Below, piece after piece: positions 4,229-23,780 of a stretch of DNA of 25,765 nt (its first letter is position 1; every line of letters starts with the position of its first letter). Source of the DNA: a virus; IMG/VR virus record IMGVR_UViG_3300047564_004667, positions 1-25,765 of that record; one strand, 5' to 3'. The position numbers were made by a program, and so were the translations under genes. The notes under the pieces were generated by a model that was not told where the DNA came from, searched no databases, and worked only from the letters and a program-made list of their open reading frames with translations.

Positions 4229-4948
4229 ATGCCTTTACCAAAAATTGCTACACCAACTTATGAACTTGAATTGCCTTCAACTGGACAGACAATTAAGTAT
4301 AGACCTTTCTTAGTTAAAGAAGAAAAACTTTTGGTCATTGCTTTAGAGTCTGAAGATACTAAACAAATTACTACTGCAATTAAAACAGTAATTAAAAACT
4401 GTGTTGAAACAAAAGGAATTAAAGTAGAATCTTTGCCTACCTTTGACATTGAATATTTGTTCTTAAATATTCGTGCAAAATCCGTTGGTGAAGAGATAGA
4501 GTTAAGTGTTATTTGTCCAGATGACGAAGAGACAAATGTAACTGTTAAAATAGATGTTGATGATATTAAAGTTAAAACTAATCCAGATCATACTAACAAA
4601 ATTAAGTTAGATGATTCTTTGATGATGGAAATGAAGTATCCTTCTCTAGAACAGTTTATTAAAAATAACTTTGATATGTCTAGTAATAATGCAATGGAAC
4701 AATCATTTGAACTTGTTGCATCTTGTGTGGATAAAATCTATAATGAAGAAGAAGTTTGGTCTGCTGCTGATGTGACTAAAAAAGAACTAATAGATTTTCT
4801 TGATCAAATGAATTCATCTCAATTCAAAGAAATTGAAAAATTCTTTGAGACTATGCCAAAACTTTCTCATACAATTAATGTGACAAATCCTAACACTAAT
4901 GTTGAAAATGAAGTCATTCTTGAAGGGTTATCAAGTTTTTTCGCATAG
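4229..4948 (+). CDS. 26: gp26 baseplate hub protein / tail assembly chaperone
   Basis: The 239-residue product has the phrase 'YELELPSTGQTIKYRPFLVKEEK' at residues 11-33 (given here only to mark the family). That phrase characterises T4-like baseplate proteins annotated as gp26 (Pfam T4 bacteriophage base plate protein). gp26 takes part in assembly of the baseplate hub. Residues 90-120 form a beta-rich part with 'EEIELSVICPDDEE'; the C-terminal half is helical and acidic. The start is set by AAGGAG 3 nt upstream of ATTATG. The last sense codons are AGT TTT TTC GCA followed by TAG, and they contain a -1 slippery heptamer. The next frame is open into gene 51, so a gp26-gp51 fusion is possible. 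The position directly before gene 51 and the tape-measure gene is that of lambda G/GT-type chaperones. Confidence 0.8.
   Translation: MPLPKIATPTYELELPSTGQTIKYRPFLVKEEKLLVIALESEDTKQITTAIKTVIKNCVETKGIKVESLPTFDIEYLFLNIRAKSVGEEIELSVICPDDEETNVTVKIDVDDIKVKTNPDHTNKIKLDDSLMMEMKYPSLEQFIKNNFDMSSNNAMEQSFELVASCVDKIYNEEEVWSAADVTKKELIDFLDQMNSSQFKEIEKFFETMPKLSHTINVTNPNTNVENEVILEGLSSFFA
4936..4942 (+). promoter_or_regulatory. Candidate -1 programmed frameshift site
   Basis: The heptamer T TTT TTC is in the correct X XXY YYZ phase relative to gene 26, two codons before its TAG. After a -1 slip the frame reads CGC ATA GCA ATG and continues in gene 51 without a stop. GAAGGG at 4922-4927, 8 nt upstream, could act as an internal Shine-Dalgarno stimulator as in dnaX. 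GATTCA (4953-4958) and TGAATC (4968-4973) can form a 6-bp stem that starts 10 nt after the heptamer. Gene 51 has no Shine-Dalgarno sequence of its own. Confidence 0.55.
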
Positions 4949-4950
4949 CA

Positions 4951-5133
4951 ATGATTCATATGGATCTTGAATCCTATTTCAAATTAAATTTTTCGTTAAT
5001 GCAATATCATAAATATTCATTGACGGAAATTGAAAATATGATTCCTTGGGAAAGGGATATTTATGTTGAATTATTAAAGCAACACATAGAAGAAGAAGAA
5101 TCTAAACAGAAGCAACAAAGTAATGGCTGGTAA
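4951..5133 (+). CDS. 51: gp51-type baseplate hub assembly catalyst
   Basis: The 60-residue product contains 'YSLTEIENMIPWERDIYVELLKQHIEEEE'-type sequence: a short helix, the PWERDIY turn, and an acidic helix. This pattern occurs both in proteins annotated as gp51 in T4-like cyanophages and in the T part of tail assembly chaperones of other phages. It is placed directly after gene 26, as in T4 (26-51). The ATG at 4951 is 2 nt after the gene 26 stop and has no Shine-Dalgarno sequence; a second ATG is at 4960. Expression is therefore likely by translational coupling, by -1 frameshift from gene 26, or both. Its 3' end overlaps the tape-measure start by 11 nt, which again suggests coupling. Confidence 0.68.
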   Translation: MIHMDLESYFKLNFSLMQYHKYSLTEIENMIPWERDIYVELLKQHIEEEESKQKQQSNGW

Positions 5134-8080
5134 TCAAAAAGTTGCTACAGAAAATATCAATGAAGTAATTTTAAGATTACTAAAGATCAATTCTGGATTG
5201 GAACTTGATTACCAGACTTATTATGAAATTATAAAGAAAAAATTAGCATCTGCTAGATTAGTAGGAAAAGAACTTCCTGGGGAAGAAGATGAACTTTTAA
5301 GAAATGAATTTAAGAGAGTTAAAAATAAGAAAGGTAGATTTAAAGTAAAGACCTCAAAGGCAAAAGTATCAGCTTCTCCTCCTCCATCTGCACCTCCTTC
5401 CCCTTCATCTGGAGGAGGAAATCAACCAGGAGGGGGGAAAATTGCTAGATCTCCTTCTGGGAAAATAATAGCAAGCAATTCTTTTTTCCAAAAATACATT
5501 GATCCAGTAAAAGTTAGAGACATTACAGAAAAGTCTACTAAAATTTCTAGATCATCATCTGATAATTCTGAATCATTAAAAATTTCTTTAGATAATATTA
5601 ATAAAACTCTTGATTCAATTGTTAATACTTTAAAGGATATTAATGATCGAAATAAGAATCAATTAGAAGAAAAAAGAAAAGAAGAAGAAAATAAAAAAAG
5701 AAAATCAAAAGAAGGTGAATTAGAGTCTAAAACTTTTGATGGAATAAAGAAAGCAATATCTGCAATTACTAAACCATTTCAATCTATTTGGGATAAGATA
5801 CTTAATTTTATTGGTAATATAATTCTTGGAAGAATATTAATTAAACTTGTAAATTGGATTGCCGATCCAAAAAATCAAGGAAAAATAAAAAGTATTATTA
5901 GATTTTTTAAAGATTGGTGGCCAGCATTACTTGGATCTTATGTTCTATTTGGAACAACCTTTGGCAAATTTGTCAGAGGAACTGTTGGTATGCTTGGAAG
6001 ATTTATCTTCCAAATTGGTAAGGTTGCCATACCACAACTTTTAAAGTTTATAAGAACTCCTTTAGGAAAAGGAATTGCTCTATTTACTGCTGGGGCAACA
6101 ATCCCTGCAATGTTTCCTCAAACTGTAAATGAGCAGGAAAGAAAAACTGAAAAGGCGCCCGGAATCAAAGAAGATAAGATAAAACAACTTCAAACACAAA
6201 AAGCGAATCTTAATGTTTTTGAAAGATTGCAAGGAAAGGGATCTGAAATTGATGAACAGATTTATTTCTTACAAACAGGAAAGACAAAACAATATGGATT
6301 TAGTGGTGGAGGATTTTCTGGGGGATTAGGTAGTGGATTAATAAATGGACCAAAGGGAAGAGATAGAGTTCCTGCAATGCTTACTGATGGGGAATTTGTT
6401 ATGTCAGTTGGTGCTGTTAATAAGTATGGAGTAGAGACCTTAGAAGCAATGAATGCTGCAGGAGGTGGTACAAACCAACCTCAAGTAGTTGGAGGAAAAA
6501 CTTATGCTTATGGTGGAGGAGAAATTGATAAAAATAAAAATCAACCTTTCTCTAAAAATCCTATAGATGCTGTAGAAAGATTTTTGAGGTATAAATTTGG
6601 AGTAAACCTTAATAATAAGAGCACTTGGGGACCATCTCAAAATAATTTTAATACTAATGCTCCCACTAGTAATACATCTTTCAATTCTGCCTCTACAGGG
6701 TCTTTACTTACAAATCCTTTAGGTGCAATTAGTAGAATTGCATCTAGATCTGGACTTCCCTCTTTAGGTATGAAAGGACCATCTGTATCTCCATCTCCAT
6801 CTAGACCTAGTTCTGTTCCCCCTAGTAATACTAAAGGATCTTTATTTACAGATCCTTTAGGTGCAATTAGTAGAATTGCATCTAGATCTGGACTTCCCTC
6901 TTTAAGTTCTTTAGGTAGACAAAATACAAGATCTCAAAGTCCAAATAAAGCAACTCCTAAAAGTCCAACTTCTACTAATAAAAAAGACGAAAAAATTTCT
7001 GATTATTTTAAAAGTTCTACTTATAGAGATGCTGGTGCAATTTATGCTAAACAAATGCTTGGTGGATTAGGTGGTTCAATAAGTGAAGCAGATTTATCAA
7101 AAGAATCAAAATCAGAATTACAAAAAGCAATTCAAAGAGCAAAAAAAAGAACAGGGCAAGAAATAAGAAAAGCAGAAATGAAAATTGCGGACCTTGAAGC
7201 ATCTGGGGCTTCTAAAACCCCTAAAGGTAGAGAAGCATTAGCAACTCAAAGAAGTTTCTTAAAAAAATTAAAAGATGGTGGTATAAGAGTTCAATACACT
7301 GATTATAATGATGAAAAGGGGAATTTAACTCCTGCTGCCAAAGGAGCAAAAACTATATTAGGACAGTTTTGGGCAAATGAAAGATCTAAAGAAGAGGGTG
7401 GAGGATATAGAATAGAAGATAATTATGATTTTGATAGACTTAAAATTAAAGATAGTAAAACTAATAAAATGCGTGATATGACAAATGCTGAACTATTTTC
7501 TCAAGGGGTACTTGGGAAAGGAAAATCATTTCAAGAAAGATTACAAGCAGCACATCTTTTAAATCCCTTTAAAGGAAAAGGTGATGTTGATATGGTCTTA
7601 GGTGGTAAAAGAACTACTTCTGAGAAAATGGGTCTTATTGCAGGAAAAACACCAATAGGATCAATGCTTGGAATTACTGGGAAACCAAAAACACCTAATC
7701 AAAAAGCATTAGAAAAGAAAAGGCCTTGGTGGGATAAAATGGGATGGTTTGGTGGTGCGTCTAAACAAATGCAAGAGAATAAAAATAAAGAAGAAGAGTT
7801 TAAAAAGAAAAATAAGTCAGTAAACCTTTATGATAAACCACAAAAAAATACAAAACAATCTAATAAATCTAGGTTCACTAGACCAAAAACAGCAACTAAA
7901 ACTCCGGTAAAACCCATACCAAAACCAGCAGCAAAGAAAAAAACATCTCAATATAAAGGAGGTCAAAGATCTAGTAATAGAAATAAGTCTAAATCAGGAA
8001 CTAAACCACCATCATTTTCTCCGAATCATAGTGCTAAATCTACAAAAACTGCAAGAAGCACTTTGGGAGTTAAGAAATAA
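5123..8080 (+). CDS. Large tape-measure-like tail protein 1
   Basis: The 985-residue product is predicted to be a tape-measure or tube-lumen protein. In order it has: an N-terminal helical part (1-75) and a Pro/Ser/Gly-rich linker (85-115); a coiled-coil segment with Lys/Glu-rich helices (about 145-200); a hydrophobic region (about 210-340) with several possible membrane-inserting helices (NFIGNIILGRILIKLVNWI and further); a Gly-rich part with 'RDRVPAMLTDGEFVMSVGAV' near 412-431, a phrase typical of tape-measure C-terminal regions; and a repeat-rich, then very basic, low-complexity tail (520-985). It follows gp26/gp51 as tape measures follow chaperone genes. T4 gp29 is 590 aa and shows no similarity I can see, so the name gp29 is not used. 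The next gene has a similar architecture and may be a paralogue. Confidence 0.7.
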   Translation: MAGNQKVATENINEVILRLLKINSGLELDYQTYYEIIKKKLASARLVGKELPGEEDELLRNEFKRVKNKKGRFKVKTSKAKVSASPPPSAPPSPSSGGGNQPGGGKIARSPSGKIIASNSFFQKYIDPVKVRDITEKSTKISRSSSDNSESLKISLDNINKTLDSIVNTLKDINDRNKNQLEEKRKEEENKKRKSKEGELESKTFDGIKKAISAITKPFQSIWDKILNFIGNIILGRILIKLVNWIADPKNQGKIKSIIRFFKDWWPALLGSYVLFGTTFGKFVRGTVGMLGRFIFQIGKVAIPQLLKFIRTPLGKGIALFTAGATIPAMFPQTVNEQERKTEKAPGIKEDKIKQLQTQKANLNVFERLQGKGSEIDEQIYFLQTGKTKQYGFSGGGFSGGLGSGLINGPKGRDRVPAMLTDGEFVMSVGAVNKYGVETLEAMNAAGGGTNQPQVVGGKTYAYGGGEIDKNKNQPFSKNPIDAVERFLRYKFGVNLNNKSTWGPSQNNFNTNAPTSNTSFNSASTGSLLTNPLGAISRIASRSGLPSLGMKGPSVSPSPSRPSSVPPSNTKGSLFTDPLGAISRIASRSGLPSLSSLGRQNTRSQSPNKATPKSPTSTNKKDEKISDYFKSSTYRDAGAIYAKQMLGGLGGSISEADLSKESKSELQKAIQRAKKRTGQEIRKAEMKIADLEASGASKTPKGREALATQRSFLKKLKDGGIRVQYTDYNDEKGNLTPAAKGAKTILGQFWANERSKEEGGGYRIEDNYDFDRLKIKDSKTNKMRDMTNAELFSQGVLGKGKSFQERLQAAHLLNPFKGKGDVDMVLGGKRTTSEKMGLIAGKTPIGSMLGITGKPKTPNQKALEKKRPWWDKMGWFGGASKQMQENKNKEEEFKKKNKSVNLYDKPQKNTKQSNKSRFTRPKTATKTPVKPIPKPAAKKKTSQYKGGQRSSNRNKSKSGTKPPSFSPNHSAKSTKTARSTLGVKK
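6714..6904 (+). repeat. Direct repeat pair, 53 bp identical
   Basis: Bases 6714-6766 and 6852-6904 are identical over 53 bp (offset 138 bp, in frame). Similarity extends upstream to about 6699 and 6837. The encoded repeat centres on PLGAISRIASRSGLPSL. The spacer is Ser/Pro-rich. Confidence 0.95.
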
Positions 8081-8085
8081 GATCA

Positions 8086-11000
8086 ATGGCAAAACTACTT
8101 CCTCCATCAAAGTCATCTATCATTAAGTCTTTAAGAACTTCTGTAATTAAAGCAGATAAGTTTTTAAATTTTAATAAGCCTTCAGTTAAAATATCAAAGT
8201 CATCTTCTATATTAGATACTGTAAAGAAAATTGAAAATAAAGTTATTCAGGTTGATAAACTTCTGAAAGATTCTTTATTACTTTCAAAAAAGGAAGATAA
8301 AAAAACAAGAATTAAAAAGGAAGGAGAAGAATTCTCTGAAAGAGAAAAAGAGTTAGAAAAGAAACTTCCAAAACCTGAAAAAGAAGTTAAACTACCATCT
8401 GCTCCAAAACTTGGTTTTTTTGGATGGATTAAAAACTTTATCACTCAAACTGTTCTTGGATTTCTTGCAGTTAGGTTGATCGGATTTCTTCCTCAATTAT
8501 TAAAAATACTTCCTGTTATTATTAATGTAAGTGATTTTATTATTGATTGGGGAGGAAAATTATTAGATGGTCTAGTAACTTTTATTGATTGGGGATATAA
8601 AACATATGATGCAACTAGAGGATTTGTAAAAAATATTTTTGGGGATGATGGAGTAAAAAAATTCGATGAATTATCTGGAGTATTAAATAAATTTTTAAAT
8701 CTGGCAATCATTGCCGGAATGGTTGCTGCTGGTTCTGGTGGATTTGGTGGAGGAGGAAAAGGAGCATCTCCAAAAATTTCTGGTGGAACACCTAAAGTAA
8801 CTACAAGTGGTGGGGGAGCAGCAGGTAGACTTGATGTAAGAAATCCACTTCGTCAAAGACCTACGGTAACTACAAGTGGTGGTGGGGCAGCAAATGGACT
8901 TGATATAAGAAATCCACTTCGTCAAAGACCCATTGTAACTACAGGTGGTGGAGGAAAAGGAGCACTTTTATCTTCAGTTAGACCATTTTTAAAAAGAATA
9001 CCACTTCCAGTAGTTGGGGCATTAATTGATTTTGGATTGTCCGTTGCTCTTGGGGAGAATCCTGGTAGGGCAGCATTTAGAGCAATTGGAGCAGGTCTTT
9101 TAGGTGCTCTTGGGGCAGTTATAGGATCTGTAGTTCCAGTTGCTGGAAATTTTATTGGTGGTATGATTGGAGGAGTTACTGGAGATTTGGCAGGGGGTGC
9201 TTTATATGATTTATTTTTTGGAGGGAAACCTCCTAAAAAAGGTAAAGTAAATAAACTTGCTGGAGGAGGAATTCCAAAAACTTCTAGATCAAAATCAGCA
9301 AGAAGAACTCTTAAGAAGAAAAAACCAAAAAGAACTGTATCTTTTATTCCTAGAAAAATAAAACCCGGTGCTGATACTGGTGGAGAAAAGAAAGTAAGAA
9401 AAGTATTTCCAAATCCTGAAAAAGCTTGGTGGGATCCTTTTGGGATATTTACTGGAAAAAGTAAAGAACAAACTCAGGAACCTAAAAAACCAACAGAAAA
9501 AACAACAAACCCTCAAGAATTTTTAGTCAAAAGTAATAATAATTTAGGAAAAGCAGACTTCTTTGGTCCATTCTTTACTATTGCTTTAAAGAGTGTTTTG
9601 GGACAAAAGCCTGATTTGCTTGATTATAAAAATGCAGGTAGAGGATTAAATTCTTGGATTCAAACTACATTTAAATCAAGTCCTCTTGGATTTTCTGGGG
9701 GAGGAGAAGTTGATGCTCAAAAATATTTTGGTGGAGAAGATTATACAAATGTAATAGCAAAGTCTGTTGAAGACTCTGTATCTAAAGAAGTTAATACTAC
9801 TATTCATAATTTGAGTAGAGAATTATCTTTAAGACCTGTTGGTAGAGAAGAGATGCTTGAAAAAAATAATGAGCAGAGACCAGGAGAAGAAAATTTGGAA
9901 GACTTTGATGGAGAACTTTCTGGATCTGGAATGGAAATGGCTAGAGGCATTTATAAAAAATTAATTATGGATGGAATACCAGCATCTGCTGCTGCTGGTA
10001 TTGTAGGAAATATTGGTGCGGAATCAAATTTTGATCCTGCAATTATTGAAAAAGGTACTGGAATTGGTAGGGGATGGATACAATGGTCGTATGGAAGAAG
10101 AACTGCCTTTGAAAATTGGGCAAAACGAAATAAAATAAATCCAGATACTCCTGAAGCAAATTATGGGTATTTGTTATATGAAATGAAAGGGAATGATGGT
10201 AATCATTGGATGCCAAGAGTAGATACTCCTCAAAATTTGAGAGTTACTAGTTTAGATCAATATATTAAAAAAGCTACTGATCCAGAAACAGCAGCAAAAC
10301 TTTTTATGTATAATTATGAAAGACCAAGATCTGATGTCCAACATTTAGATCGCAGAATTAAATATGCTAAAGAAGTTTCTAGCATGAAAGATATAGATTT
10401 AACTAGTAATAATTCTTATCGAAAAGGAAAAGGTCGTGCTCAAAAAGGATTTCCTACAAGATTTCCTCCTTCTTCTCCTGGAAAATTTAATTCTATTGAA
10501 TATATAACAGGAGACCCTAAACATTCAAATTTTGAATTAAAAGGTCATGGATTACCTTCAAATTATCATGATCATATTGCTTTCAAAACAATTGCCGATA
10601 AAGAAAGAGCAAAAAGAGCATTGAGATCAGCAGGAATTAAAATAGGGAGTGAACTTAGGCCTGGTGATCGTGGGTATCACGGAATTAATTTAGCTATTGA
10701 TGTTCCAGGATATCAGTGGGGAGGAGGTGGTTCTATTGGTAGAAAAGAATTTGAAGGTTCTAAAAAAGTTAGATCTATTTTAGGTTTTTATGAAAAAGGA
10801 GGTGAAACTTTAGATAAACCTCATTTAGCAATGATTGGTGAGAAAGGAACTGAATATGTAATTGATGCAGATTCTTACAAAGAAACTGAAAAAGTTGCTC
10901 CAGGACTTCTTGATATATTAAATTATGATATTCACGATAGAAATTCATTGAAAAAGTATATGCCTTCAATTATAAATTCTTTAAATACATATATGGACTA

Positions 11001-11160
11001 TGAGCAACCATATGCTGAACCTGAAATTGTTGAAGTTCCCATTGAAATAGAAGTTCCTCTTCCAATTGGAGGTGAAGGTGGAACAGGAACTTCTATTTCA
11101 ATGATGCGTGATATAGATAATAGTGTTCCAGGAATGGATATTTTAGACGCAATAGGTTAA
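8086..11160 (+). CDS. Tape-measure-like tail protein 2 with tail-lysozyme domain
   Basis: The 1024-residue product has an N-terminal basic and coiled-coil region (1-105), then a hydrophobic helical segment 'FGWIKNFITQTVLGFLAVRL' (about 109-128) and more helices to 210. A Gly-rich repeat part (225-290) and a glycine-zipper hydrophobic region (305-375, with GAGLLGALGAVIGSVVPVAG) follow. Residues about 616-765 look like a phage tail lysozyme: 'GIPASAAAGIVGNIGAESNF' with the likely catalytic E646, then 'GRGWIQWSYGRR'. Residues about 800-880 have H828-D829-H830 and 'YHGINLAIDV' (H865, D872), which suggests a second, peptidase-like module that I cannot assign. Near the end 'HLAMIGEKGTEYVIDADS' is a tape-measure hallmark. 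It would digest peptidoglycan during DNA entry. It follows the previous gene by 5 nt and precedes gene 27. Confidence 0.72.
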   Translation: MAKLLPPSKSSIIKSLRTSVIKADKFLNFNKPSVKISKSSSILDTVKKIENKVIQVDKLLKDSLLLSKKEDKKTRIKKEGEEFSEREKELEKKLPKPEKEVKLPSAPKLGFFGWIKNFITQTVLGFLAVRLIGFLPQLLKILPVIINVSDFIIDWGGKLLDGLVTFIDWGYKTYDATRGFVKNIFGDDGVKKFDELSGVLNKFLNLAIIAGMVAAGSGGFGGGGKGASPKISGGTPKVTTSGGGAAGRLDVRNPLRQRPTVTTSGGGAANGLDIRNPLRQRPIVTTGGGGKGALLSSVRPFLKRIPLPVVGALIDFGLSVALGENPGRAAFRAIGAGLLGALGAVIGSVVPVAGNFIGGMIGGVTGDLAGGALYDLFFGGKPPKKGKVNKLAGGGIPKTSRSKSARRTLKKKKPKRTVSFIPRKIKPGADTGGEKKVRKVFPNPEKAWWDPFGIFTGKSKEQTQEPKKPTEKTTNPQEFLVKSNNNLGKADFFGPFFTIALKSVLGQKPDLLDYKNAGRGLNSWIQTTFKSSPLGFSGGGEVDAQKYFGGEDYTNVIAKSVEDSVSKEVNTTIHNLSRELSLRPVGREEMLEKNNEQRPGEENLEDFDGELSGSGMEMARGIYKKLIMDGIPASAAAGIVGNIGAESNFDPAIIEKGTGIGRGWIQWSYGRRTAFENWAKRNKINPDTPEANYGYLLYEMKGNDGNHWMPRVDTPQNLRVTSLDQYIKKATDPETAAKLFMYNYERPRSDVQHLDRRIKYAKEVSSMKDIDLTSNNSYRKGKGRAQKGFPTRFPPSSPGKFNSIEYITGDPKHSNFELKGHGLPSNYHDHIAFKTIADKERAKRALRSAGIKIGSELRPGDRGYHGINLAIDVPGYQWGGGGSIGRKEFEGSKKVRSILGFYEKGGETLDKPHLAMIGEKGTEYVIDADSYKETEKVAPGLLDILNYDIHDRNSLKKYMPSIINSLNTYMDYEQPYAEPEIVEVPIEIEVPLPIGGEGGTGTSISMMRDIDNSVPGMDILDAIG
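8797..8955 (+). repeat. Tandem 69-bp repeat, 2.3 copies
   Basis: Units start at 8797, 8866 and 8935 (the last partial), period 69 bp, in frame (23 residues). Each encodes VTT(S/G)GGG followed by a spacer and (D)(V/I)RNPLRQRP. It lies in the Gly-rich linker of tape-measure-like protein 2. Confidence 0.93.
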
Positions 11161-12710: not shown

Positions 12711-15575
12711 ATGTCTGATGTAACTACTGGTTCTACTTTTAATCCTCAATTTTTTGTCAATCCCCCTTGGTGGTTAGGCAGAGTAGAAACAAAAGAATCT
12801 TGGCAAGACAATATTGAAGCAGAAACATTTACAAATATTTCCTCCATTAAAGGATGGGGGCATAGATATAAAGTAAGAGTTTTTAATTGGCACACTGGGG
12901 ACTTAGATAAACTTCCACCAGAACAGATGGCATTCTGTCAGGTGATAATGCCTGTCACTGCTGGTTCTGGGCACGGTGGAGCATCAGTAACTCCATCCAT
13001 AGAACCAGGATCTGTGGTCTTTGGATTCTTTATGGATGGAATGGCAGGACAGGAAGGTTATATTGTTGGTGTTGTAGGAAATTCAAATAACAATGTTCCA
13101 AAGGAAAGAGGAGTTGTTCCTCCACCTCCACCATCTCCCCCTAATGGTCCTGGAAGTTTATCAAACACTGTTCTGCCTCCAGACGTTGATAATTTAAGTA
13201 TTCCTCAACTATCAAGACTTCTTAATCCCGCAAGAACCCCAACCAGAGAAGAATTTAATGCTGCTTCTAAAGCAAGATCTGAAGCAAGAGCAAAAGGACT
13301 TCCCCCACAAGAAGTAGAAAGACAAGTCTTAGTTGCTACTGCAAAAGCTTCAAGACAAGCAGCAACACAACCTCCAGGAAATTGTAATCAAGGATATCAA
13401 CAATTTAATAATACATTCAGTGATTCAAATAAAGCACCAGCATATGTTCCTGATAATTTAAATGTTTATAATGTCCCTCTACAAGTTACTGAGGGTCTTC
13501 ACTTAACTACATTAGCTTGGGACACTCAGGATCAAGATAAAAAGGTAAAACGACCTTTAAGAAATGCTTGTGAAGGTAGTGATTCTGATCTTCAAGGAAT
13601 TGCAAAAGTTATTAATAATTTAATAGCACAGGCAGATCAAGTTAAGAGACTTGCTGGTGAAGTTTCTTTAGCAGCAGCTTCTATACAATCACAATTAAAT
13701 AGTATAATTCAAGCAGCATCTAGTTTTATTTCTTCATATATGACCAATTTACTTGGTCTTATATTAGAACAATTAGAAGTTGAGATTACAAATCTTTTAC
13801 AAAAAGAAGTAATTCCATTTCTTTTCCCAAGTGAAAGACCAACATATAATAACATTGTATCAGAAGCAATTGAAATTCTTTCTTGTATCTTTAAAAAGAT
13901 AATTTCATCTCTTGTTCCTACATTTGCGAAGTTGCTTACTGATTCAATTGAAAAATTAGTTAGTGGTCCAGTTTGTGCAGTTCAGCAATTACTTTCTGAT
14001 TTTTTAAATCCAATCTTAGGAGAAATAACTTCTGCTCTTTCTGGAGTTCTTGGAGCAATTGGCAACATTGCTTCTATAGTTGCTTCTGCTTTTGATATTT
14101 TATCTGGAATATTAAAGTTCTTTCTTTGTGAGGAGGATCAAAGTTGCCCAGAATATGATGAAATTGATTTGGCAGGTCCAGCAAAACCTGCTATACAAAT
14201 TGGAGATTTTTCTTCTGAGATTATTAAAACACTTGCTCCTCCAGGAAAAACTCCCGCAAGAGCCGTAAATTGTGAAGTTGGTCCAGTTCTTTGCGGTCCA
14301 CCCACAGTTAATTTCTTAGGAGGGGGAGGTTCTGGAGCAATAGTAAATCCAATTGTAAGTTCAAATTCATCAATTATTGGTTTTGATATTATTAATCCTG
14401 GATCATTTACTTCTACTCCCACAATTAGTCTTCAGGATGCTTGTGGAAATGGAGCAGGAGGTTCTTTTAAAGCAATAATGGAACCTGATGAAGAAAATCC
14501 TGGTAAGTTAAAACTAAAAAATATTGCAGTAAAATCTCCTGGAACTGGATATTTACAGAAACCTGATGGTAGTATGGGAGGTGATGGATTTACTTGGAAG
14601 CAACCTGATGAAGGATACATTAGAACCCGAGATGGTAGATATAGAATTGTCGGAATTAATAAACCAGTAGTTTTAAATCCAGGAGATGTTTATTATCCTC
14701 CAGTTGGACCACCAGAAACTGTACCTCTTAAGTTTAATAAGTTTGAAGTAAATATAGAGCAAACAGTGGCATCTGAAGAAGAACCAATTCAGATGAAAAT
14801 TACTAACCTTGAAGGGGAATCTAAAAAATATTATGGATTTATTTCTAATAATCAACTATCTTTGAATACTATTCCAAATAGAATTGCTAGAGGAGGATCT
14901 ACAGTTGTTGGAGAAGATGTTATTGAAGGAACAATTATAGTTCTAGATCAAAGTATAGGAATAGGAACCACTGGAAATCTAGGTATAGGAACCACTGGAA
15001 ATCTAGGTATAGGAACCACCGGAAACAATCTAGGTATAGGAACCACCGGAAACAATCTAGGTATAGGAACCACCGGAAACAATCTAGGTATATCAACTGA
15101 CACTTCAGGAATAGGAACTGACAGAAAGACTATTGATCTTCCACTTCTCCCAGTAAAACCACCAAATATACCAGTAGTAAATGACTTTGCAATAACAGAT
15201 TCTTCTGAAGAAGGTGGGGGTAAAGTCTCTTATAATGTAGTATTGTGCGTAGAAGAGATTGAGGTTCTTCAAAGTGGATACGGATACAGACCAGAAGATG
15301 AACTCATTATTACACCTAGCAATGGTGTTGTTGCAAAACCAATAATTAATGAGTATGGACAAATCACTGGTGTTAGAGTGTTAAATAGTGGTTGTGGTTT
15401 TGATGATATTCCAGAAATCAAAACAAATTCTTCTACGGGATTTAATGCTTTACTTGCTCCAATACTTACAGTGAAGAGATTATCTAAAGATGAAGAGTTT
15501 GATGTTCCAAAAGATTCAAGAGTTATTAACGTAGTTGATTGCACTGGATGTATAAAATGCTCAGGAGGAAATTAG
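12711..15575 (+). CDS. 5: gp5-type baseplate hub protein with N-terminal OB fold, no lysozyme domain
   Basis: The 954-residue product begins like T4 gp5: 'WWLGRVE', a beta-rich part, then 'LPPEQMAFCQVIMPVTAGSG' and 'EPGSVVFGFFMDGMAGQEGYIVG' (to about residue 125). This is the OB-fold of the hub. A Pro-rich linker follows (140-150). T4 gp5 has its lysozyme next; here there is instead a helical, hydrophobic region (about 293-475). After it come several beta units of the pattern 'IxVxNxGxGYxxxPxIxI' (about 535-600 and 840-915), a tandem Gly-Ile-Gly-Thr-Thr-Gly-Asn repeat (750-792) and a C-terminal C944-x2-C947-x2-C950 cluster. The lysozyme seems to be carried by the tape-measure-like protein, and a beta-helix by the next gene. 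It would bind gp27 in the hub. Confidence 0.82.
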   Translation: MSDVTTGSTFNPQFFVNPPWWLGRVETKESWQDNIEAETFTNISSIKGWGHRYKVRVFNWHTGDLDKLPPEQMAFCQVIMPVTAGSGHGGASVTPSIEPGSVVFGFFMDGMAGQEGYIVGVVGNSNNNVPKERGVVPPPPPSPPNGPGSLSNTVLPPDVDNLSIPQLSRLLNPARTPTREEFNAASKARSEARAKGLPPQEVERQVLVATAKASRQAATQPPGNCNQGYQQFNNTFSDSNKAPAYVPDNLNVYNVPLQVTEGLHLTTLAWDTQDQDKKVKRPLRNACEGSDSDLQGIAKVINNLIAQADQVKRLAGEVSLAAASIQSQLNSIIQAASSFISSYMTNLLGLILEQLEVEITNLLQKEVIPFLFPSERPTYNNIVSEAIEILSCIFKKIISSLVPTFAKLLTDSIEKLVSGPVCAVQQLLSDFLNPILGEITSALSGVLGAIGNIASIVASAFDILSGILKFFLCEEDQSCPEYDEIDLAGPAKPAIQIGDFSSEIIKTLAPPGKTPARAVNCEVGPVLCGPPTVNFLGGGGSGAIVNPIVSSNSSIIGFDIINPGSFTSTPTISLQDACGNGAGGSFKAIMEPDEENPGKLKLKNIAVKSPGTGYLQKPDGSMGGDGFTWKQPDEGYIRTRDGRYRIVGINKPVVLNPGDVYYPPVGPPETVPLKFNKFEVNIEQTVASEEEPIQMKITNLEGESKKYYGFISNNQLSLNTIPNRIARGGSTVVGEDVIEGTIIVLDQSIGIGTTGNLGIGTTGNLGIGTTGNNLGIGTTGNNLGIGTTGNNLGISTDTSGIGTDRKTIDLPLLPVKPPNIPVVNDFAITDSSEEGGGKVSYNVVLCVEEIEVLQSGYGYRPEDELIITPSNGVVAKPIINEYGQITGVRVLNSGCGFDDIPEIKTNSSTGFNALLAPILTVKRLSKDEEFDVPKDSRVINVVDCTGCIKCSGGN
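14958..15086 (+). repeat. Tandem repeat, two 24-bp and three 27-bp units
   Basis: Units begin at 14958, 14982, 15006, 15033 and 15060. The first two encode GIGTTGNL (8 residues), the last three GIGTTGNNL (9 residues). The three 27-bp units are identical to each other. The array is in frame in gene 5, so copy-number change would not break the gene. Confidence 0.96.
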
Positions 15576-21046: not shown

Positions 21047-22123
21047 ATGGCTAATTATTTTTCTAAAAAAGTAAAAACAACTCCAAATAGTGGACTTTCT
21101 ACTGATAGGCATTTATTTTTAAACTTAGAGCAAGCAGAACCAAATCTTGGGTATCCTGGAGAAAAACCTGGTGGGGTTCCTTTATCTGAAAATTACTATA
21201 AATTAGTCACTATTGATGAAGGAACTCTTAACGATAGATATTGGCTAACAGAATCTCCTGTGAATTTTTCTGCCAATGGAATCAGTATCTATGATGAAAA
21301 TATTTTAGTAGGTACTGCTGATAGTGTATCAAAAATTAATTTTAATGGGGATTTTATTAGAGTAACTGCTAGTGGTAGTATATCAACAGTTACTTTTGGT
21401 CCTCCAGAGGGAAATGAAGGAAGAGTTGTTTTTGCTGATGGTGCAGGTAGTTTTTCTTTATCTAACAAATTATTATTTAATCCTTCATCGGGAATTTTAA
21501 CTGTCGGCAATCAAATTGACGTAGGTGTTGGCGGAACTATTTTCACTATCAAAGATGGTAATGTTGGAATTAATATATCAACCCCAACCGAAAGGTTACA
21601 CGTAAATGGAAATGCTTTGATTGATGGGTTATTAGACACAAAAAGCATTAATAGTGGAATAGGAACTTTCACAACAATAAAAACCACGTATTTAATAGAT
21701 TCAAATAATAGTCCTGGAAGTCCAAATCAAGTTTTATCTTCAACTCCTAGTGGAGTTCTTTGGATTGATAAAGGAATTGGTGGAAATTGGACTGATAATG
21801 GTTCAACTAAAAATCACAATGTAACCTATACTAACAACACCGGATCTTTATTATATGTAAGTGCAACTCCAGGAATTGATAGAGATGCTAGAGGTTTAAC
21901 AGCAGTTCAAATAGCAGGATCTTATGCTATTGCTGAAGTCGATGGAATTGAGGTTGCTAGAACAAGAGACAATGGAACCGCAAATACTGAATTTTTATTT
22001 TTAAATGTTAAATTTTTTGTTCCAAATGGAAGTGAGTATGTAGTTAGAGTTTATGATACTATAGGAACTCAATGGTTATCAAATATCACTACATACGCAT
22101 GGAGTGAATTTAAATTCATATAA
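21047..22123 (+). CDS. Fibre/adhesin paralogue A
   Basis: The 358-residue product starts MANYFSKKVKTTPN. An N-terminal attachment part (1-85) is shared with the next gene. A beta shaft (90-225) follows, with 'GILTVGNQIDVGVGGTIFTI' and 'NVGINISTPTERLHVNGNALI'. A small hinge ends 'GVLWIDKG', and a 95-residue C-terminal module (about 262-358) contains 'LLYVSATPG' and 'GIEVARTRDNGTANTEFLF'. The C-terminal module resembles receptor-binding heads with a jelly-roll pattern. The start codon follows TTAATT with no Shine-Dalgarno sequence; the same context (TTAATTATG) occurs before the next gene, which supports both starts. It is probably a trimeric fibre that binds the host surface. Confidence 0.62.
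   Translation: MANYFSKKVKTTPNSGLSTDRHLFLNLEQAEPNLGYPGEKPGGVPLSENYYKLVTIDEGTLNDRYWLTESPVNFSANGISIYDENILVGTADSVSKINFNGDFIRVTASGSISTVTFGPPEGNEGRVVFADGAGSFSLSNKLLFNPSSGILTVGNQIDVGVGGTIFTIKDGNVGINISTPTERLHVNGNALIDGLLDTKSINSGIGTFTTIKTTYLIDSNNSPGSPNQVLSSTPSGVLWIDKGIGGNWTDNGSTKNHNVTYTNNTGSLLYVSATPGIDRDARGLTAVQIAGSYAIAEVDGIEVARTRDNGTANTEFLFLNVKFFVPNGSEYVVRVYDTIGTQWLSNITTYAWSEFKFI
21841..22117 (+). repeat. 277-bp 3' module, copy 1 (fibre paralogues)
   Basis: Aligns without gaps to 23501-23777 (offset 1660). By hand count there are 17 mismatches in 277 positions, about 94% identity. It encodes the shared C-terminal head module. Flanking parts of the two genes are much more divergent. Confidence 0.93.
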
Positions 22124-22130
22124 TTTAATT

Positions 22131-23780
22131 ATGACTAATTATTTTTCTAAAAAAGTAAAGACTACTCCGAATAATAAACTTTCTTCTAATAGAGATTTAT
22201 TTTTAAATCTAGAACAAGTAGAACCAAGTCTTGGTTATCCTGGGGAAACCCCCATTAAAGAATCTCAAAACTATTATAATCTTATAACAACAGATAATTC
22301 ATCTCTTTCTGAAAGATTTTGGGTTTCTAATTCTGATATTACATCAGTAAGTGGAATAAGTATTTTTAAAGATCGTGTTTTAGTTGGAACTGCTAATAGT
22401 ATTAATAAAATTAATTTTAAAGGAAATATAATAAATTCTTCTGCATCAGGAAATATTTCTACTATAACTTCTACCGTTAATGTCCCTGGTAGTTCTTTTG
22501 GAAATTTAGTTTTTATTAATAACAATGAATTTACAACTTCTTCAAAACTATCTTTTAGTCCTTCCGCAGGAATTCTTACGGTAAGTAATAAACTTTCTGT
22601 AGATTATTTATTTACTTCTACAATTGATGGAGTTAGTATTGGGGCAGATTACACCACAGAAAAATTGTATGTTAATGGTAATTCTTTAATTGAAAATAAT
22701 ACTGAGTCTGAATATTTGTTATCTGACGATGGAAATATAGAAACAATAAAAACTACCTATTTGAAAGACTCCAATGATAGTGTTGGAAATACAAATGAAA
22801 TTTTAACATCAAGTACAACTGATATAAAATTTGCTCTACGCATTTACAAATATGAAGGATATCTTGGTGTATCAACATTACCTAATTTTGATGATTCAAC
22901 CGATGATGTAAATTATGTTGATAATCTTACTCCAGTAGAAGGTCCAATTTATCTATCAGAAGTTAATGGATTTAATATAGATTCTTATATTTCTAACATT
23001 GTTTCTAATCCATTTTTTAATAATAAAACATGGTTAGTTGATGGATATTTTCTAGCACCAAAAACAGGAAGTTATACATTTTATATTGCTTCTGATGATG
23101 CAGGGTATTTATGGGTTGGAGATACTGCAATAGAAGGATATACAAGAGAAAATGCTCTTGTAAATAATGGAGGAAAACATCCTATTTTTGAAAAAAGTAA
23201 TTCTATTTTTTTAAACTCTGGAGTTTATTATCCAATTAGAGTCCTTTATGGAAATCACAATACGAGTAATCCATCCGGATTTAACCCAACTCAACTTTCA
23301 ATTTCATTTAGTGGCCCAGGAATTGGCAAAACTACAAATGGATTCGGATATTATTTCAACACGGATGAAATTCTTACATTAGAAAATTATCAAGAGCAGT
23401 TGAATGGAATTTCTTGGGGATCTCCAATAACTGATATTTCTGGAACTTGGGGAGGGGAAACTGGTGTTAGAACTGATAAAGTAAGTTTTGTTAATACTAC
23501 CGGATCTTTATTATATGTAAGTGCAACTCCAGGAATTAATAGAGATGCTGAAGGATTAACAGCAGGACAAATAGCAGGATCTTATGCTATTGCAGAAGTT
23601 GATGGAATTGAGGTTGCTAGAACAAGAGACAATGGAACCGCAAATACTGAATTTTTATTCTTAAATGTTGATTTTTTTGTACCAAATGGAAGTGAGTATG
23701 TAGTTAGAGTTTATAATACTACAGGAACTCAATGGTTATCAAGTATCACTACATATTCATGGAGTGAATTTAAATTCTAA
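22131..23780 (+). CDS. Fibre/adhesin paralogue B with PA14/GLEYA-like domain
   Basis: The 549-residue product starts MTNYFSKKVKTTPN. I chose the ATG at 22131 over one at 22104 because it aligns with paralogue A and keeps the TTAATTATG context without a gene overlap. The N-terminal attachment part and shaft resemble paralogue A. Between shaft and head lies an extra domain (about residues 235-400) with 'WLVDGYFLAPKTGSYTFYIA', 'SDDAGYLWVGDTAI' and 'SGVYYPIRVLYGN'. This is the core pattern of PA14/GLEYA sugar-binding domains. The C-terminal 95 residues nearly repeat those of paralogue A. A glycan-binding adhesin is the natural reading; calcium-binding loop residues cannot be fixed by eye. Confidence 0.68.
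   Translation: MTNYFSKKVKTTPNNKLSSNRDLFLNLEQVEPSLGYPGETPIKESQNYYNLITTDNSSLSERFWVSNSDITSVSGISIFKDRVLVGTANSINKINFKGNIINSSASGNISTITSTVNVPGSSFGNLVFINNNEFTTSSKLSFSPSAGILTVSNKLSVDYLFTSTIDGVSIGADYTTEKLYVNGNSLIENNTESEYLLSDDGNIETIKTTYLKDSNDSVGNTNEILTSSTTDIKFALRIYKYEGYLGVSTLPNFDDSTDDVNYVDNLTPVEGPIYLSEVNGFNIDSYISNIVSNPFFNNKTWLVDGYFLAPKTGSYTFYIASDDAGYLWVGDTAIEGYTRENALVNNGGKHPIFEKSNSIFLNSGVYYPIRVLYGNHNTSNPSGFNPTQLSISFSGPGIGKTTNGFGYYFNTDEILTLENYQEQLNGISWGSPITDISGTWGGETGVRTDKVSFVNTTGSLLYVSATPGINRDAEGLTAGQIAGSYAIAEVDGIEVARTRDNGTANTEFLFLNVDFFVPNGSEYVVRVYNTTGTQWLSSITTYSWSEFKF
23501..23777 (+). repeat. 277-bp 3' module, copy 2 (fibre paralogues)
   Basis: Second copy of the module at 21841-22117, gap-free, about 94% identical. 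The identity stops at the end of the coding sequence: copy 1 ends ATTCATATAA, copy 2 ATTCTAA. Confidence 0.93.

Follow-up and report, generated by a model that had tools for sequence, protein, structure and literature searches.

Comparative evidence for a -1 frameshift joining genes 26 and 51 in a T4-like probable cyanophage and its relatives

The junction of genes 26 and 51 raises the question of whether the two are independent genes or a single gene read in two frames. The window, that is, the whole stretch of DNA analysed, is a 25,765-base IMG/VR virus record with a GC content of 33%. It derives from a T4-like phage, probably with a cyanobacterial host, and among the matches listed the isolates nearest to its gp26 are cyanophages, e.g., SynMITS9220M01 and P-TIM68. 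The initial annotation proposed that gp26 and gp51 are joined by a programmed -1 frameshift, and this proposal is strongly supported by the heptamer, its phase, the open frame, the loss of gp51 starts and the structured region that follows. Based on sequence comparison, genes 26 and 51 very probably constitute one frameshift gene, giving a short product (TAC-N) and a gp26-gp51 fusion (TAC-NC). The elements of the junction are the following:

4229-4948, plus strand: gene 26, putative tail assembly chaperone of 239 residues, short form (TAC-N); matches PF12322 and phrog_150, with a modelled N-domain resembling an HK97 chaperone
4922-4927, plus strand: GAAGGG, Shine-Dalgarno-like, a possible stimulator, 8 nt upstream of the heptamer
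4936-4942, plus strand: slippery site T TTT TTC in the reading phase of gene 26, kept in nearly all relatives
4942-5133, plus strand: -1 frame extension, R-I-A followed by gp51, putative C-terminal domain of TAC-NC, the long form; matches phrog_634 and phrog_150
4946-4948, plus strand: gene 26 stop TAG, one codon 3' of the heptamer
4951-5133, plus strand: gp51 ORF, with its ATG at 4951
5123-8080, plus strand: ORF of 985 residues adjoining gp51, candidate tape-measure protein with weak profile matches

The 3' end of gene 26, stop included, reads GGG TTA TCA AGT TTT TTC GCA TAG, and the -1 frame continues as CGC ATA GCA ATG ATT CAT ATG into gp51. The window letters agree with the sequence statements of the initial annotation: the heptamer lies in the gene 26 phase close to TAG, the -1 frame is open through CGC ATA GCA ATG, GAAGGG is found 8 nt upstream, the 3' end of gp51 (5133) overlaps the next ORF (start at 5123), and gp51 lacks a Shine-Dalgarno sequence, no such 4-mer being present at the usual distance. 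Since the GC content is low and the ORFs of the window contain several further in-phase T TTT TTN heptamers, the site could, from the window alone, be due to chance; it is its conservation in relatives that places it far above chance.

Relatives were collected from five viral-contig scans and from phage records of several T4-related groups. A complete gp26 end was available for 327 loci, and dereplication at 90% identity left 162. In this collection, whose viral-contig part is biased toward gp26 relatives having conserved peptides in common with the queries (KVP40, used as a query, returned two relatives only), T TTT TTN is in phase in 324 of the 327 complete relatives, in 79/79 near relatives and, after dereplication, in 162/162 loci. 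The stop stands one codon 3' of the heptamer in 142 of these 162. All 327 relatives have an open -1 frame, which is cut by the contig end in two. The heptamer is missing, with the -1 frame still open, from three distant relatives, of which two are Ackermannviridae: at the end of the gp26 ORF of Vibrio phage VAP7, Vibrio phage D504 and Serratia phage Kevin, GTTTTT, CTTTTC or GTTTTC takes its place. Given the open, gp51-like -1 frame, this suggests a different mode of slippage in these phages. In 146/162 loci a Shine-Dalgarno-like 4-mer precedes the heptamer by 8-10 nt, where it is forced by Glu-Gly codons.

In all 162 dereplicated loci the -1 ORF is open from the heptamer onward, with no start codon conserved among the loci, and the extension measures 55-76 codons; the other two frames close early, with medians of 6-7 codons. 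These data bear on translational coupling, the alternative that survives best, according to which gp51 would be a separate small protein made by ribosomes re-initiating just past the gene 26 stop. An ATG does occur in the window 2 nt past that stop, so some independent initiation may take place in this phage. Furthermore, gp26 and gp51 are annotated as separate CDS in the public phage records examined, and those in which the two genes are neighbours all lack an annotated fusion. However, 30 of the 162 loci contain no ATG, GTG or TTG for gp51 in the interval from the upstream -1 stop to 14 codons past the heptamer, and frameshifting is consequently the only route to gp51 in those loci. Where the usual gp51 ATG is present (74/162), a Shine-Dalgarno-like 4-mer precedes it in 0/74 cases, compared with 96/162 at gp26 starts. 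Coupling also leaves the invariant heptamer unexplained, and we consider it highly improbable.

The frameshift reading is further supported by the RNA downstream of the heptamer. When compared with a null in which synonymous codons are randomised, predicted structure reaches a clear maximum of the region scanned in the 40-nt segment that begins 5 nt past the heptamer, at +5 to +45 (mean z -2.3, paired t -17). In the clade of the window, the candidate elements are:

4949-4969, plus strand: hairpin 3' of the heptamer, with covariation of its inner stem in 67 sequences
4953-4957/4962-4966, plus strand: inner stem GATTC/GGATC with loop ATAT (AUAU in RNA), covarying
4949-4951/4967-4969, plus strand: optional outer stem CAA/TTG, weak

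For GATTC/GGATC, 86.9% of cells in this clade are paired and two-sided changes occur at all five pairs; both its score and its pairing are matched by no shuffle. Under a coding-aware null, in which synonymous codons were shuffled within each codon column, the pairing of the inner stem was reached in 0/2000 trials, and all five inner pairs form in 42 of the 67 sequences, where the null gives 27 on average. The outer stem was reached in 51/2000 trials of the same null. Taken singly, the short stem of the window is not significant when set against shuffled copies (z about -0.4). Two other clades possess different, longer stems at the same position, and strong folding 3' of the heptamer is also observed in S-PM2, Atu_ph07 and others. 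The inverted repeat GATTCA/TGAATC, which had been suggested to begin 10 nt downstream, is indeed present (4953-4958/4968-4973) but is not conserved as a stem, being 48% paired, a value that does not exceed that of slid controls. In the jumbo Agrobacterium phage Atu_ph07 (locus L095, 2140-2200), an in-phase T TTT TTC and an open -1 frame precede a strong 11-bp hairpin; the -1 extension carries no gp51 annotation.

The position of the structured region also bears on transcriptional slippage, in which mRNAs one base off, produced on the T6 run, would encode the fusion. The site is indeed a run of six T, whereas slippage of this kind usually requires longer runs, and the run reaches seven T in just 11 of the 162 loci. 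Moreover, the conserved structure lies 3' of the run and is still untranscribed while the polymerase sits on it, which makes this explanation very unlikely.

The returned question of chance can be addressed through codon usage. From the amino acids and the codon use of gp26, the heptamer would be expected in about 68 of the 162 loci and is observed in 162, although the loci are related by descent and treating them as independent overstates the significance of this excess. At comparable Phe-Phe/Leu pairs elsewhere in gp26, T TTT TTN occurs in 7/294 cases. At the final heptamer position C stands in 140 loci, T in 11, A in 10 and G in 1, Leu replaces Phe in 11 loci with T TTT TT kept, and the preceding codon is any of eight, all ending in T (AGT, TCT, AAT, GAT, GCT, CAT, GGT or ACT). 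The variation of the preceding codon and of the last base indicates that nucleotides, and not residues, are kept; on this comparison, selection acts on the nucleotides of the heptamer. The expectation that heptamer and phase persist while flanking codons drift is therefore borne out. That the heptamer is incidental, a product of a conserved gp26 Phe-Phe pair and AT-rich codon use, would fit the 33% GC and the other in-phase T6 heptamers of the window, but it is the least likely explanation, scarcely credible against 162 observed sites for about 68 expected and the T TTT TT retained where Leu substitutes Phe.

With regard to protein identity, gp26 matches PF12322 (T4_baseplate; E 3.9e-76) and positions 1-232 of the 282 of phrog_150. 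It belongs to the family of T4 gp26, which matches the same PF12322 model (E 8.8e-64). The -1 extension matches phrog_634 (E 4.7e-30) and also the end of the gp26 family profile phrog_150 (positions 241-280), which suggests that phrog_150 includes fused members. T4 gp51 aligns with positions 13-280/282 of phrog_150, its residues 1-201 match PF12322, and against a profile of the virtual gp26-gp51 fusion it covers positions 74-282/298, spanning the junction. Consequently, a single T4 gene appears to encode what the phage of the window would make by frameshifting. T4 genes 26 and 51 lie on opposite strands. Frameshifting reportedly appears conserved in several T4-like groups, and the T4 group is said to use separate genes 26 and 51.

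The predicted model of gp26 has a pLDDT of 87.6 for the whole chain, with an N-domain comprising residues 1-96. Among 796 structures compared, the top three solved matches of this domain are 2ob9 (the HK97 tail assembly chaperone), 3fgx and 3klu (YqbN, an XkdN-like phage chaperone), with Z 7.4-7.9; the next match has Z 4.9. The similarity to 2ob9 is moderate, with Z under 8 (7.8; residues 1-86 of gp26, rmsd 3.9 over 84 residues). The predicted model of gp51 matched no solved structure, and sequence searches of solved structures returned no credible match. The earlier suggestion that gp26 and gp51 are equivalents of lambda G and GT thus finds support in the homology to T4 gp26 and gp51 and in the fold of the gp26 N-domain, and a chaperone function is probable by the same reasoning.

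The ORF of 985 residues beside gp51 shows weak tape-measure family matches only (phrog_37649, E 0.0016), and its location suggests that it may be the tape measure. In the second large ORF, 8086-11160, weak tape-measure profile matches accompany a phage tail lysozyme domain (PF18013, E 7e-31); both large ORFs accordingly stay candidates. Elsewhere in the window, the adjacent ORFs 21047-22123 and 22104-23780 have a near-identical C-terminal stretch (TGSLLYVSATPG...WSEFKF), likely a local duplication in tail-fibre-like proteins, and a short in-frame tandem repeat, GIGTTGN, is found at 14930-15110 within the 954-residue ORF 12711-15575.

We infer that slippage takes place, at a rate such that the majority of ribosomes would translate gene 26 as far as TAG and release the short chaperone, TAC-N. 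In a fraction of ribosomes, with both Phe-tRNAs on U UUU UUC, a backward slip of one base would occur, aided by the downstream mRNA hairpin and perhaps also by the upstream Shine-Dalgarno-like GAAGGG. For these ribosomes the gene 26 stop would be out of frame, and translation would continue for about 63 residues in the -1 frame, generating the gp26-gp51 fusion, TAC-NC. On the model of lambda G/GT, both chaperone forms may coat the tape-measure protein and deliver it during tail assembly.

The slippery sequence of lambda is G GGA AAG. The present site, U UUU UUC, differs from it, is followed by a hairpin, and lies in genes whose products belong to different protein families by sequence. In other respects the systems are alike: as for lambda G/GT (Levin 1993; Xu, Hendrix and Duda 2004), a short chaperone and a -1 frameshifted long one are predicted, the slippery heptamer falls close to where the upstream ORF ends, and the genes stand just before the tape-measure gene, here a candidate ORF. 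In the Vandenendeviridae and Andersonviridae (PMC12846349), a -1 frameshift likewise occurs at the end of TAC-N, on a T-rich site, with the -1 frame open throughout; the motif there is GTTTTT, compared with T TTT TTN here.

The initial annotation erred in regarding such a frameshift as undescribed in T4-like phages. According to citing papers, the chaperone genes of T4-like phages were identified by Vladimirov, Gautam and Davidson (Virology 2022, 566:9-15), the genes and proteins being the same as here; poly-T frameshift signals in T4-like TAC-N genes are credited to them (PMC12846349), and some T4-like phages are described as having two separate genes instead, a short one and a long, fused one (PMC10885494, citing Vladimirov et al. 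2022). The core claim is already known in kind. T4 itself has two genes for the purpose, and the phage of the window would use a frameshift. The same gp51 ORFs were called reduced by Sullivan et al. 2010 (PMC3037559), who noted that gp51 of cyanophages and marine vibriophages lacks roughly the N-terminal 200 residues present in T4-type gp51; frameshifting would account for this truncated look, with gp26 supplying what these ORFs lack. In the searchable literature, which covers few subscription papers, no cyanophage-specific description and no description of hairpin covariation were found, and the covarying, lineage-swapped hairpin is possibly new.

Collectively, the findings have implications for annotation and for the evolution of these genes. 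The long chaperone is absent from the public records examined, as gp26 and gp51 are annotated separately. A -1 frameshift at U UUU UUN may be ancestral across T4-related phages, stimulated by a downstream hairpin for which each lineage has substituted an unrelated stem in the same position, and with T4 genes 26 and 51 as a derived duplication that took over from the frameshift, a scenario to which we give an even chance; if it is true, neither the hairpin nor its turnover would have been described before. The downstream stems would represent a natural series of stimulator hairpins acting on one fixed heptamer.
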